This document shows positions 1,116-5,800 of a DNA stretch of 42,409 nt, piece by piece. The stretch comes from Verrucomicrobiota bacterium (GTDB lineage: Bacteria > Verrucomicrobiota > Verrucomicrobiia > Limisphaerales > JACDHS01), in the NCBI GenBank assembly GCA_013820875.1, contig JACDHS010000032.1:1-42409 (forward strand), in the 5' to 3' direction. How positions within the stretch are numbered: the stretch's first letter is position 1; each line of letters opens with the position of its first letter. The notes under the pieces were generated by a model that was given only the letters and a program-made list of their open reading frames with translations, did no database searches and was not told the origin of the DNA. The position numbers and the translations under genes are program-made.

Positions 1116-1409
1116 ATGAGCCGTTTAACAGCTTTGGAAATTTCTCTCAGACACGGAGTTTGTTCATCGCCGGGATGCGCCATCTGCGCCGAGCTCCCGA
1201 TGGAGAATGTCGCCGGTTACCTGAATCAGATCGGGTTCCACGTCCGGGATTACAGCGACGACCACAAAACCGCGTTCGGTTTTGTCGAAGTGCTTGAAGA
1301 CGAAGAAACCTGTTCCCGCCTGCTGAAGAATCAGAACTCATCTCCAGAAGGCCGGACACCAGCCCTGAACCCGATGTCAAACACCAAGGAAAGCTGGAGA
1401 TCGCCATGA
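1116..1409 (+). CDS. small Cys-containing protein of unknown function
   Basis: A 97-residue protein I do not recognise. It has a C-x4-C-x2-C cluster near the N-terminus (CSSPGCAIC, residues about 16-24), followed by a predicted alpha/beta segment (VAGYLNQIGFHVRDYSDDHKTAFGFVEV) and a polar tail. The ATG at 1116 is chosen because AGGAA lies about 8 bases upstream; a TTG at 1092 in the same frame would add eight residues. Its stop overlaps the next start as ATGA, so translation is probably coupled. The cysteines and the neighbour at 1920 suggest metal or redox handling, without proof. Confidence 0.6.
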   Translation: MSRLTALEISLRHGVCSSPGCAICAELPMENVAGYLNQIGFHVRDYSDDHKTAFGFVEVLEDEETCSRLLKNQNSSPEGRTPALNPMSNTKESWRSP

Positions 1410-1915
1410 ACGAGGATGAAACGCTGATCATGCACCGGCTGCATCAATTCTCAGATGGATATGCCGCCAGGGATATTCCCGCCGTACTCGCAACGTTCAG
1501 CCGCAACCTGGATGCCACCGTCGTCGTCGGCAGCAGTTCTGACGAACCTCTCCTGGGGTTGGATGCCATTCGTAAGCGGCTTATGCAGGAATTCCGCCAG
1601 CAGGATCATCTGCGGCTACACGCCCGATGGATGAACCTGAACATCGTCGGAACAGTTGCCTGGATCACTGCCTTGTCAGAAGCCATGTCCCCTTTGATTG
1701 AAACGCCGCTGACCAGCCGGCTCACTGCCGTTCTCCTGAAGGAATCGGACGGCTGGTTTATCGCTCATCTCCATTTCTCTTTTCCTTTGCTGCCCGTGGA
1801 AGGGAACAGAGTTCAGCCGATGCCAGAATACACGAGAGCATCCATGGAAAGATCCGCATATGAGGGGAAGTTTCCTCGTCGCCGCATCCATACAACAAAC
1901 CGAATGAAAGGATAA
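1406..1915 (+). CDS. NTF2-like / SnoaL-like domain protein
   Basis: 169 residues. Residues about 5-130 match the pattern of the NTF2/SnoaL/DUF4440 cone fold: an N-terminal helix with GYAARDIPAVLATFS, then DATVVVGSSSDEPLLGLDAIRKRLMQEF, and beta strands ending ESDGWFIAHLHFSFP. A family member may be an enzyme, a binding protein or an ignored ketosteroid-isomerase relative; the active residues do not decide which. The tail after about 140 is basic and may be disordered. It overlaps the previous gene by 4 bp (ATGA) and ends 4 bp before the copper-storage gene, so the three are likely one transcript. Confidence 0.75.
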   Translation: MNEDETLIMHRLHQFSDGYAARDIPAVLATFSRNLDATVVVGSSSDEPLLGLDAIRKRLMQEFRQQDHLRLHARWMNLNIVGTVAWITALSEAMSPLIETPLTSRLTAVLLKESDGWFIAHLHFSFPLLPVEGNRVQPMPEYTRASMERSAYEGKFPRRRIHTTNRMKG

Positions 1916-1919
1916 ACTT

Positions 1920-2261
1920 ATGCCACACGAAAAATACGAAGACTGCATACAAGCCTGCAACGAATGCGCCACCGCCTGCGATCACTGCGCCAGCGCCTGC
2001 CTCACGGAAGACAATGTCAAAATGATGACCCGCTGCATCAGCCTGGACCTGGATTGCGCGGGCATTTGTCGCCTGGCAGCCGGAGTGATGTCACGAGGTT
2101 CTGAACTCGCGCCGGAATTCTGCCGCTTGTGCGCCGAGATCTGCCGCCGTTGCGGTGAAGAATGCCGCAAACATGATCTGGACCACTGCCAGATATGCGC
2201 TGATGCCTGTGATGAATGCGCGGAAGAATGCGAAAAAATGGCAACCGAAGCTGTTCACTGA
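1920..2261 (+). CDS. four-helix-bundle copper-storage protein (DUF326/Csp type)
   Basis: 113 residues with 19 cysteines (9, 13, 16, 20, 23, 27, 39, 46, 50, 68, 71, 75, 78, 82, 90, 93, 97, 100, 104), spaced 3-4 apart so that they line one face of amphipathic helices. This is the signature of Csp proteins, which store many Cu(I) ions inside a four-helix bundle. There is no signal or Tat sequence, so it should be cytosolic, like Csp3, which has a comparable cysteine count. The start has AAAGGAT about 7 bases upstream and lies 4 bp after the NTF2-like gene. Copper binding follows from the family; the role of the upstream partners is inferred. Confidence 0.92.
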   Translation: MPHEKYEDCIQACNECATACDHCASACLTEDNVKMMTRCISLDLDCAGICRLAAGVMSRGSELAPEFCRLCAEICRRCGEECRKHDLDHCQICADACDECAEECEKMATEAVH

Positions 2262-2336: not shown

Positions 2337-4313
2337 TCAGGAGACAGCACCCGGAAGTTCAATCCAAAAGGAACTGCCGTGACCGGCTTTGGATTCCACA
2401 CCGATCGTGCCACTCATTCGTTCCACTCCCTTTTTCACGAGGGCGAGGCCAATGCCGGTTCCGGAATATTCGCTGCGATGCAATTGCTGAAAGATTTCGA
2501 AGATCTTCTCCTGGTGTTCTAAAGCGATGCCGATTCCATTGTCTTCAAACCAAAGTCGCACCCTGTCGCCAATCCGTTCGGATCGGATTCTGACTGTGGG
2601 TGTAGTCCCGTCCGCGACAAACTTAAAAGCGTTGGAGACCAGGTTAAGGAGAACCTGGTTAAGAACGCTGGCATTGGCGACAACGGGTGGAAGCGGTTCC
2701 TGCACTTGAATGGTCGCCTCACTTTTTTGCATCTCACTGTGGAGGTCGGCCAATACTTTGGAGAGGACTTCTTCCACGTTGACCGTTTCCAATGGAATTT
2801 CCTGTTGGGCCAGCCGGCCGTAATCCAAAATATCGCTGACCAGGCGATCCATGCGCACTGCACTCCTCCGGATGCGTTCCAGGTATTCCACCCCCTCGTC
2901 ATCCAGTTTACTTTTGTAATCCTGCAACACGGCCTCGGAAAAGCCGCTCATCGCCCGCAAAGGCGCGCGAAGATCATGGGCAATACTGTAGTTGAAAGTT
3001 TCCAGTGAATGGATCGTTTGCTGAAGTGCAGCGGTGCGTTCGACGACAGTATGCTCAAGCTTTTCCGCCCAGCGTTTCTGTTCATCCATATCTGTGCAGG
3101 TGCCAAACCAGCGAACAACTTCCCCTTGCTCATCTTTGATCGGCAACGCGCGGATCATATACCAGCGGTAGTCACCGCGCTCTCGATCGGGAAATCGGCA
3201 TTCAAACTCAAATGGTTCATCCGTGCTGACGGAATGCTTCCATGCCTTGATGCACTTTGGATTATCTTCCGGATGCAGCAGCGGAATCCAGCCTTCCGGC
3301 GCAGAGCTTTGATTCAAACCGGTCAGTTCGAACCAGCGCTTGTTGTAATAATCCACGCGCCCATCCGCTCGCGCCGACCAAACGACTTGCGGCATGGCAT
3401 CGGCGAGTTCCCGGAAACGTGATTCGCTTTCAAGCAAAGCCAGTTCCGCGCGTTTGCGTTCCGTTATATTGTGAGTCACTCCGGCAAGGTGCAATGGGGC
3501 GCCGGCTTCGGAGTAGGCAACTCTGCCGTTGGAATTGATCCAGCGAATCTCTCCATTCGGAATCGTGATGCGATATTCGGCGTGATAATCGGTTCCGCTT
3601 TTGATCGAACGATTCATGGAACGCACCATCCGATCCCTGTCCTCGGGATGGATCATCTTCATCAGGACATCGAAAGTGATTTCATCTTTCGGCTGCAATC
3701 CAAAGTTCGCTTTACATGTATCAGACCAGACGACCACTTTTGTCCTCAAATCCATTTGCCATGTCCCCAGGCCACCAGCTTTCAAGACAAACTCCAGGTG
3801 CTGCTTGCTTTCGCGGCTTTCCTGCAACAAATCGCGAACCATGTACTGGCGTTGACGGAACCGCAGGACGACTTCCAACGTGCTGATCAATGTGCTGGGA
3901 CGAAAAGGACGTTCGATCAACGTGACGTTCCCGCTGGGACCGAAGACACTCAACTGGCGCAAATGCGTCTGGCTCGCCTCTCCGCCACTGGTGATGATCG
4001 CCACCGGAATATCGGACCAGGAAGGTTGATTGCCCAGTGTTTGAACCAGCACAGCCACTGACGCGCTTCCGATGGCTTCTTCAGCCAGGAGAACCGCTCC
4101 ACAACCCTGATTCACCCGGTGGCAGAGATCGTACATGTCACAGCACACTTCAGCGTGCAAACTGGCTTGCCTCAGGAAGCCCACGGTCAGGGCTGCATCA
4201 TTCGCAGTAGGCGCGAGAACCAGAATTCGTTTTTCGCCTTCGACGTTGAACGCCGCTGCGATACCCGGACGACGGATATCGGAGGTCTTGGAAATGCTCA
4301 ACCTTTCGATCAT
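2337..4313 (-). CDS. PAS-PAS sensor histidine kinase with N-terminal pseudo-receiver
   Basis: 658 residues from the ATG at 4313; a GTG at 4319 is also possible. Order: receiver-like domain (about 25-155) whose beta-3 strand reads GAVLLAEEAI, lacking the usual phospho-acceptor Asp; coiled linker; PAS/PAC 1 (about 165-285, ending NITERKRAE); PAS/PAC 2 (about 295-415); HisKA with AHDLRAPLR (His about 446); HATPase with N box (LNLVSNAFKF) and G boxes (DNGIGI, GTGIGLAL). No transmembrane segment is evident, so it is cytosolic. The start overlaps the upstream KaiC-like stop as TGATG, so the two are coupled. The pseudo-receiver probably binds a partner and is not phosphorylated. No response regulator is adjacent. 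Confidence 0.92.
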   Translation of the reverse strand: MIERLSISKTSDIRRPGIAAAFNVEGEKRILVLAPTANDAALTVGFLRQASLHAEVCCDMYDLCHRVNQGCGAVLLAEEAIGSASVAVLVQTLGNQPSWSDIPVAIITSGGEASQTHLRQLSVFGPSGNVTLIERPFRPSTLISTLEVVLRFRQRQYMVRDLLQESRESKQHLEFVLKAGGLGTWQMDLRTKVVVWSDTCKANFGLQPKDEITFDVLMKMIHPEDRDRMVRSMNRSIKSGTDYHAEYRITIPNGEIRWINSNGRVAYSEAGAPLHLAGVTHNITERKRAELALLESESRFRELADAMPQVVWSARADGRVDYYNKRWFELTGLNQSSAPEGWIPLLHPEDNPKCIKAWKHSVSTDEPFEFECRFPDRERGDYRWYMIRALPIKDEQGEVVRWFGTCTDMDEQKRWAEKLEHTVVERTAALQQTIHSLETFNYSIAHDLRAPLRAMSGFSEAVLQDYKSKLDDEGVEYLERIRRSAVRMDRLVSDILDYGRLAQQEIPLETVNVEEVLSKVLADLHSEMQKSEATIQVQEPLPPVVANASVLNQVLLNLVSNAFKFVADGTTPTVRIRSERIGDRVRLWFEDNGIGIALEHQEKIFEIFQQLHRSEYSGTGIGLALVKKGVERMSGTIGVESKAGHGSSFWIELPGAVS

Positions 4314-5800
4314 CAACACCTTTGTTTTGCTTCGGACTCGGCTTCAACAAGAGGCACGCCGGTAAGCACTCCTTGAAAATCGATCAAAGGCTGGCCGACA
4401 TGAATGCCGTCGTCCGCGATAGTCATTTCACGAATGGTGCGTTCGTGGTTGCCACTCCTCTTTTTGATCATTGAAATCGCCTGCCTGACCGATCCTTTCG
4501 ACTCGAAGAATCGGAATAGCAACACCGTGTCTGCAAGATAGGTGAGGTCAACCGCGGATTCCATGGAACCTATAACTCCGCGTTGCGCGAGCACCATCAG
4601 TGTCACAATCCCCTGTTGGTTCAAGAAGGAGAGTAATTCGTGCAATTGAAGATTAAGAAATCGTTCCCCAGGCATTGCATTGAGATACCCATTGATACTG
4701 TCCAGGATCACCATGCGGGTCTCTTCGGAAGCGGCCTTGCGAATTCGATGCGCCATTTCACCCGGGGATATTTCCGCGGGATCGATTTGCTGGATTCGAA
4801 TCAACCCGCTTTTAATATGCGGCCTCAAATCCATCCCCAACTGGGATGCGCGGTGCAGAAGCGTTCCCATTGTCTCATCGAAAATGAAAAAAAGCGTTTT
4901 TTCACCACGTTCAGCAGCCGCAAATGCGAATTTCATGGTTAAGGTCGATTTACCTGTCCCAGGCGGCCCCATGAACATATTGCTGGTGCCGCGATCCAAC
5001 CCGCCGCCCAACAAAGCGTCGAGTTCAGAAATGCCACTCGAAAACACCTCCCGCTTGAAGTCGGCATGATGTTCAGCAGCAACCAGGCGCGGGAAAACAA
5101 CCATCCCCCCTCTCTTGATGGCGAAGTCGTGATTCCCCTCGCGGAAGTGCAGTCCCCGGACCTTGACGACATTCAACTGCCGCCGCGAGACACCGTAATC
5201 CGGAGTGGAGCGCAGCAGCGTGATAACACCATGCGCGATGCTTTCCAACGGACTGTCCTGTGCGCTTGCGGTCCGGTCATCGAGAAAGAGCACCGTGCAT
5301 TGATGGGCGGCGAAATATTGTTTGAATTGCAGAATCTGTTTTCGATACCGGAGCGATGTCTCGGCCAGCAACCGCATCTCGGAAAGCGAATCGAAAACCA
5401 GTCGTTGCGGTTTGATTCGTTCCACCTCATCGAGCAACACCTGGGTGCGCCGGTTTAACTCGACGTCCGATGGATGGAAAAAGGTCGTGTTAGTGTCTTC
5501 GTTGATCGTTGCTTCAAGGGCGGAAAGTTCAAACAGGTGAAGTTTATCCAGGCTCCAGCCGTGTGACTTTGCCACCTCCAGCAATTCCTCTTTCGTTTCA
5601 GAAAACGTGATATACAGGCCGGTTTCATTGTTTTTTACTCCTTCGAGTAAAAATTGCAGCGCCAAAGTGGTCTTGCCGACGCCTGGGTTTCCCAAGATCA
5701 GATAGAGTCTGTTCCGAGGCAATCCACCGCAGAGAACGTCGTCCAATCCCTCCACTCCTGTCGCGCAAGCTGACTGATTTAATGTAGCTCCGTTACTCAT
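4313..5800 (-). CDS. KaiC-like double RecA-domain ATPase
   Basis: 495 residues with two tandem KaiC/RecA domains. Domain 1 has Walker A GNPGVGKTT (37-45), catalytic region FSET (66-69) and Walker B RLVFDS (133-138). Domain 2 has Walker A GPPGTGKST (278-286), FDET (307-310) and Walker B MVILDS (363-368). By my alignment the Ser-Thr phosphorylation pair of cyanobacterial KaiC falls on Thr420-Tyr421, so the classical two-site cycle may not apply. No kaiA or kaiB is present. It overlaps the histidine-kinase gene, a pairing that suggests an ATPase switch giving input to a kinase and not a circadian clock. The ATG at 5800 has no clear Shine-Dalgarno sequence. Confidence 0.93.
   Translation of the reverse strand: MSNGATLNQSACATGVEGLDDVLCGGLPRNRLYLILGNPGVGKTTLALQFLLEGVKNNETGLYITFSETKEELLEVAKSHGWSLDKLHLFELSALEATINEDTNTTFFHPSDVELNRRTQVLLDEVERIKPQRLVFDSLSEMRLLAETSLRYRKQILQFKQYFAAHQCTVLFLDDRTASAQDSPLESIAHGVITLLRSTPDYGVSRRQLNVVKVRGLHFREGNHDFAIKRGGMVVFPRLVAAEHHADFKREVFSSGISELDALLGGGLDRGTSNMFMGPPGTGKSTLTMKFAFAAAERGEKTLFFIFDETMGTLLHRASQLGMDLRPHIKSGLIRIQQIDPAEISPGEMAHRIRKAASEETRMVILDSINGYLNAMPGERFLNLQLHELLSFLNQQGIVTLMVLAQRGVIGSMESAVDLTYLADTVLLFRFFESKGSVRQAISMIKKRSGNHERTIREMTIADDGIHVGQPLIDFQGVLTGVPLVEAESEAKQRC

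Follow-up and report, generated by a model that had tools for sequence, protein, structure and literature searches.

Can the small genes that are tightly coupled to a copper storage protein (Csp) gene be regarded as its partners in copper handling? This question is raised by a three-gene cluster at positions 1116–2261 of a 42,409-base stretch of DNA (hereafter, the window) from a Verrucomicrobiota bacterium, which represents an entire contig (C19) of a draft genome of 5.7 Mb in 239 contigs. A first-pass annotation made from the letters alone suggested that the two genes preceding the Csp gene may load, sense or use the stored metal. To our knowledge, the ways by which copper enters and leaves Csp3 in cells are not settled. 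We analysed the arrangement of the cluster, the families of its genes and their occurrence at other Csp loci.

Organisation of the gene cluster

All three genes are located on the forward strand: gene 1 (1116–1409) encodes an orphan protein of 97 residues, gene 2 (1406–1915) a SnoaL_3/NTF2-like protein of 169 residues, and gene 3 (1920–2261) a Csp of 113 residues. The reported coupling is correct, since genes 1 and 2 overlap by 4 bp and genes 2 and 3 are separated by 4 bp. The purine-rich stretches AAAAGGA, CTGGAG and AAAGGA, found 5′ of the starts of genes 1, 2 and 3, respectively, fit ribosome-binding sites.

Scored in their annotated frames with the codon usage taken from 24 other open reading frames (ORFs) of the window, genes 1, 2 and 3 reach 0.09, 0.16 and 0.21 bits per codon, and all three are well above their composition shuffles (mean about −0.47, standard deviation 0.12–0.17). 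The value for gene 1 is the lowest of the trio, still about three standard deviations over its shuffles and the top of its six frames. A promoter and terminator scan of positions 230–2400 called nothing. Tight coupling of this kind usually reflects selection for joint expression, and the partners may matter to the Csp in their own lineage.

Several further features of the window may be described here. A 42-bp tandem repeat (5.4 copies) occupies positions 1–228, at the contig start; its 28-base pattern, with up to three mismatches allowed, gave 69 matches on 23 contigs (that of the window and 22 others), often at contig ends, and the same pattern read backwards gave none. This repeat is a dispersed minisatellite of the genome, and its presence on 23 contigs makes it uninformative as a link to an adjoining efflux locus. 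Two minus-strand ORFs with a 7-bp overlap, which by eye are PAS/histidine-kinase-like (2337–4319) and KaiC-like (4313–5800), converge on the Csp gene. The single match in an Rfam scan, a bacterial small SRP RNA (RF00169, 35132–35228, minus strand, 67.9 bits), is located far from the trio.

The copper storage protein

Gene 3 can be assigned to the classical cytosolic Csp3 proteins. It matches PF03860 (DUF326) with 66.8 bits (cut-off 20.4), and in a phmmer search of PDB chains its top match is 5fig (E 2.2e-25) followed by 5arm (E 5.6e-19), which are the Csp3 proteins of B. subtilis (BsCsp3) and M. trichosporium (MtCsp3), respectively. The alignment with BsCsp3 is gapless, with 53 of 103 residues identical; H22, H85 and H89 are common to both proteins, and all 19 cysteines coincide. 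The description of the third gene as a Csp with 19 cysteines is thereby borne out, and because each of them aligns with one of the 19 in BsCsp3, this number is standard for Csp3 and does not represent a peculiarity. The full set of 19 is kept in six of nine aligned relatives of gene 3.

The protein begins with MPHEKYEDC, is alignable with BsCsp3 from residue 6 and shows by eye no signal peptide, the Tat type included. An assignment to the exported Csp1 was rejected, the score against NCBIfam TIGR04401 being 38.8 bits compared with a cut-off of 100. According to a published account, MtCsp3 has 18 and BsCsp3 19 cysteines, both proteins bind Cu(I), and a Csp3 tetramer holds about 80 Cu(I) and gives protection against copper (PMC5171941). 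As far as can be told from the sequence, gene 3 differs from BsCsp3 and MtCsp3 only by its operon partners.

The same genome encodes a second, divergent Csp (C114:8003-8314, locus L014) with 14 cysteines, 13 of which occupy standard Csp3 positions; possibly, this protein is a variant that offers fewer sites for copper.

The two companion genes

The NTF2-like character ascribed to gene 2 is supported by its match to PF13474 (SnoaL_3) with E 5.2e-16 and 59.5 bits (gathering cut-off 22), which covers profile positions 2–120 of 121. Gene 2 thus matches the domain over its full length, and what is unusual for a SnoaL_3 protein is its adjacency to a Csp. Searches for its relatives returned one of 196 genomes of the order (gene 2 itself) and four of 387 genomes of the phylum, itself included; none was found among plasmids. 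A literature search for copper storage together with SnoaL yielded no paper.

Gene 1 has cysteines at positions 16, 21, 24 and 66, and the C-x4-C-x2-C cluster noticed previously is indeed present as C16-x4-C21-x2-C24. Searches for its relatives returned only the gene itself in its order (1/196 genomes) and in its family (1/2 genomes), and none in the plasmid and phage collections. Pattern searches gave 66 stretches in genome contigs and six in viral contigs, none of them a relative. No Pfam or NCBIfam family matches the protein with E up to 5, and no PDB sequence does. Prediction from the single sequence gave a poor model (pLDDT 48.9), in which the elements are ordered as helix, strand, helix, strand, strand, helix, and a fold search with this model gave nothing with E < 0.1, the best match (a KH domain, E 0.14) not being useful.

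The companion genes at other Csp loci

To find how often the arrangement recurs, we compared 105 other Csp loci, including 19 from the order and phylum, 80 from genome contigs and six from plasmids. The genome-contig loci are the best 80 of 551 and are biased to close relatives, and at least one pair in the collection (L047 and L048) looks like one DNA under two names. Flanking DNA was analysed over 1.5 kb at 11 of the 19 order and phylum genes, and over at most 4 kb, or less where a contig ended sooner, at the 80 contig loci; neighbour genes were defined as mechanical ORFs, some of which are antisense or spurious. One neighbour listing, which assumed a fixed match span for most loci, is approximate, and no count given here is based on it.

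No relative of gene 1 was detected by an unfiltered phmmer search among the ORFs of these loci (0/105); its best non-self match (E 2.8) lies inside the window. A SnoaL_3 gene adjoins Csp at one locus of the 105 (L095, from a Bacteroidetes metagenome-assembled genome), where it starts about 45 bases past the Csp stop and matches Pfam SnoaL_3 with E 3.4e-18 and gene 2 by phmmer with E 0.14. We discounted this locus as support for a Csp–SnoaL_3 link, since the gene order is reversed, the N-terminus is lipoprotein-like and it is a single case among 105. A small SnoaL_3 profile run against 4614 reading frames recovered the same gene; its only other match, a weak one at L022 (E 0.0042), is about 5 kb away from the Csp of that locus. 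The trio, when sought in other genomes, therefore does not recur as a gene order, and the partners largely appear not to accompany Csp elsewhere. As regards conservation of the trio, close relatives are scarce, with a single further genome of the family in the sample.

The genes found next to Csp at other loci point to a copper setting. A Pfam scan of ten chosen neighbours assigned eight, namely an HMA protein, DUF305 (three loci), CusF, a copper oxidase, a response regulator and a universal stress protein, and left two without a family. Among the six plasmid records, a copper oxidase and CopB adjoin Csp in two, but not in the other four. The two are the Pseudomonas luteola plasmid NZ_CP044084, with a Csp at 67.0% to gene 3 over the aligned part, and the Massilia sp. 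H6 plasmid NZ_CP103372, with a Csp at 61.5% over the aligned part. Both clusters are devoid of SnoaL_3 and 97-residue genes, whereas the trio of the window has no adjoining copper oxidase or pump.

These data bear on the possibility that genes 1 and 2 are true copper accessories, the protein with C16, C21, C24 and C66 carrying Cu(I) to or from Csp3 or sensing it, and the SnoaL_3 protein helping to unload or use it. The tight coupling of the trio, the four cysteines in 97 residues and the small metal-related neighbours of Csp elsewhere (HMA protein, CusF, DUF305) are in its favour, and the idea of metal partners is reasonable in kind; for genes 1 and 2, however, it is unsupported. Gene 1 has no relative beside any of the 105 other Csp genes, a SnoaL_3 gene adjoins Csp at one of them, where its product is apparently secreted, and gene 1 as an HMA metallochaperone was rejected, because it has no Pfam HMA match and ranks 3650 among 5000 shuffles and itself with an HMA profile that is weak (three sequences, one of them a fragment). 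We consider the accessory role unlikely. In the earlier interpretation, the Csp3 identity, the NTF2-like label and the copper setting are supported, while the loading, sensing or use of metal by the partners finds no support in the comparison of loci.

Other readings of gene 1

Gene 1 might alternatively be a very divergent RRM protein acting on RNA under stress, its cysteine cluster then lying in the first strand without being a metal site. Its stretch KTAFGFVEV resembles by eye the RNP1 motif of RRM proteins, with FGFVE in common, and the predicted elements, in a model of low pLDDT (49), include the succession strand, helix, strand, strand, helix. An RRM profile based on 29 domains, which were motif-picked from 33 loci, ranks gene 1 sixth of 5001 when compared with its own shuffles, and 193 of the 196 genomes of the order encode RRM proteins, short ones being near-universal. 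However, the profile score is 5.1 bits (E about 6), which places gene 1 at rank 8 of 3273 reading frames with others higher; a PF00076 (RRM_1) search of its genome does not pick it up at E values as high as 10, and the general Pfam scan likewise gives no match. The fold search, with nothing at E < 0.1, also speaks against this reading, and the idea was formed post hoc, when the sequence had already been seen. The RRM reading represents a weak lead, and we hold it to be improbable.

That gene 1 is a chance ORF or a decaying gene, useful translation being limited to the SnoaL_3–Csp3 pair, would agree with its orphan status in every collection searched and with a coding score below those of genes 2 and 3, but this score relative to the shuffles and the other frames, the good ribosome-binding site and the ATGA overlap with gene 2 make such a view very hard to sustain.

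The upstream gene and the copper setting

The Cys/His-rich protein claimed to be encoded upstream is present: the forward-strand ORF at 561–983, ending 132 bp before gene 1, encodes a small, predicted secreted or membrane-anchored protein of 140 residues with seven cysteines, five histidines and a hydrophobic N-terminus. This protein has no match in Pfam or NCBIfam, and its gene was not found in plasmids. Among 195 other genomes of the order, four carry a relative, with E values from 4.8e-8 to 5.8e-4, and all four relatives are located beside metal-resistance genes. At L129, the gene is directly followed by OEP, a CusB-like HlyD_D23 protein and ACR_tran; at L130, by OEP, with a copper oxidase further on; and at L132, by OEP and a copper oxidase. 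At L131, a heavy-metal ATPase with HMBD and YHS domains is a few kb off, and a CusA-like ORF was recognised by eye.

The protein and its relatives have in common a hydrophobic stretch at the N-terminus, a C-S pair and the C-terminal pattern R-x-P ... P-x-V ... A-x-x-S-x-A-P-P. Together with L125–L128, it would make up a hitherto undescribed family, with small secreted Cys/His proteins as members and S-x-A-P-P at their C-terminal end, which is associated with the copper/heavy-metal efflux loci of the order. Since all the relatives occur at metal loci, a copper or silver setting is supported for the locus of the window, and its copper setting looks real. The heavy-metal RND pumps of the same genome are located elsewhere, on C36, C192 and C134; small Cys- or His-rich ORFs were also seen by eye near the pump clusters of C36 and C192.

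The interval between the upstream gene and gene 1 contains two candidate signals. A stem search detected, at 1017–1036, a perfect 8-bp hairpin that has a loop of 4 nt and a short T run after it, and an 8-bp stem was reached in 18 of 2000 shuffles of positions 984–1115. This hairpin, for which the terminator scan made no call, may end the transcript of the upstream gene; it suggests that the trio and this gene may be transcribed separately, and the argument for copper that is based on the upstream gene is weakened accordingly. A 7-bp inverted repeat, TCCTGGC-N16-GCCAGGA (1071–1100), is located just 5′ of the gene 1 ribosome-binding site and could be an operator or a leader hairpin. None of 200 shuffles of the leader folds as well as the leader itself (z = −3.5).

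Implications for copper tolerance

The presented analysis suggests, with a probability of about 0.72, that the cluster is a small copper-tolerance operon, in which the classical Csp3 is the working part and genes 1 and 2 are co-transcribed, lineage-specific companions unneeded for storage as such. The Csp3 would act in the cytosol as a four-helix bundle lined with thiolates, presumably forming a tetramer, that takes up Cu(I) and renders it harmless. Genes 1 and 2 would most likely serve the same stress response in ways of their own and not load copper. Under this reading, gene 3 is expected to bind copper, the operon to be inducible and the partners to be dispensable.

A bolder proposal, which we regard as a long shot, is that gene 1 encodes a new Cu(I) shuttle or a copper-responsive regulator dedicated to Csp3, perhaps ferredoxin-like or RRM-like with the cysteines in the first strand, and that the SnoaL_3 protein handles a loading or releasing ligand. 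If true, a Csp3 would here have a partner devoted to releasing or loading its copper. Such a partner would be useful, and the evidence from the trio does not supply it, since the companions are not common to other Csp loci.

Alongside the proposed copper-tolerance operon built around Csp3, the association of the protein encoded at 561–983 with copper/heavy-metal efflux loci of the order may offer a modest new lead on a family that has no name as yet.
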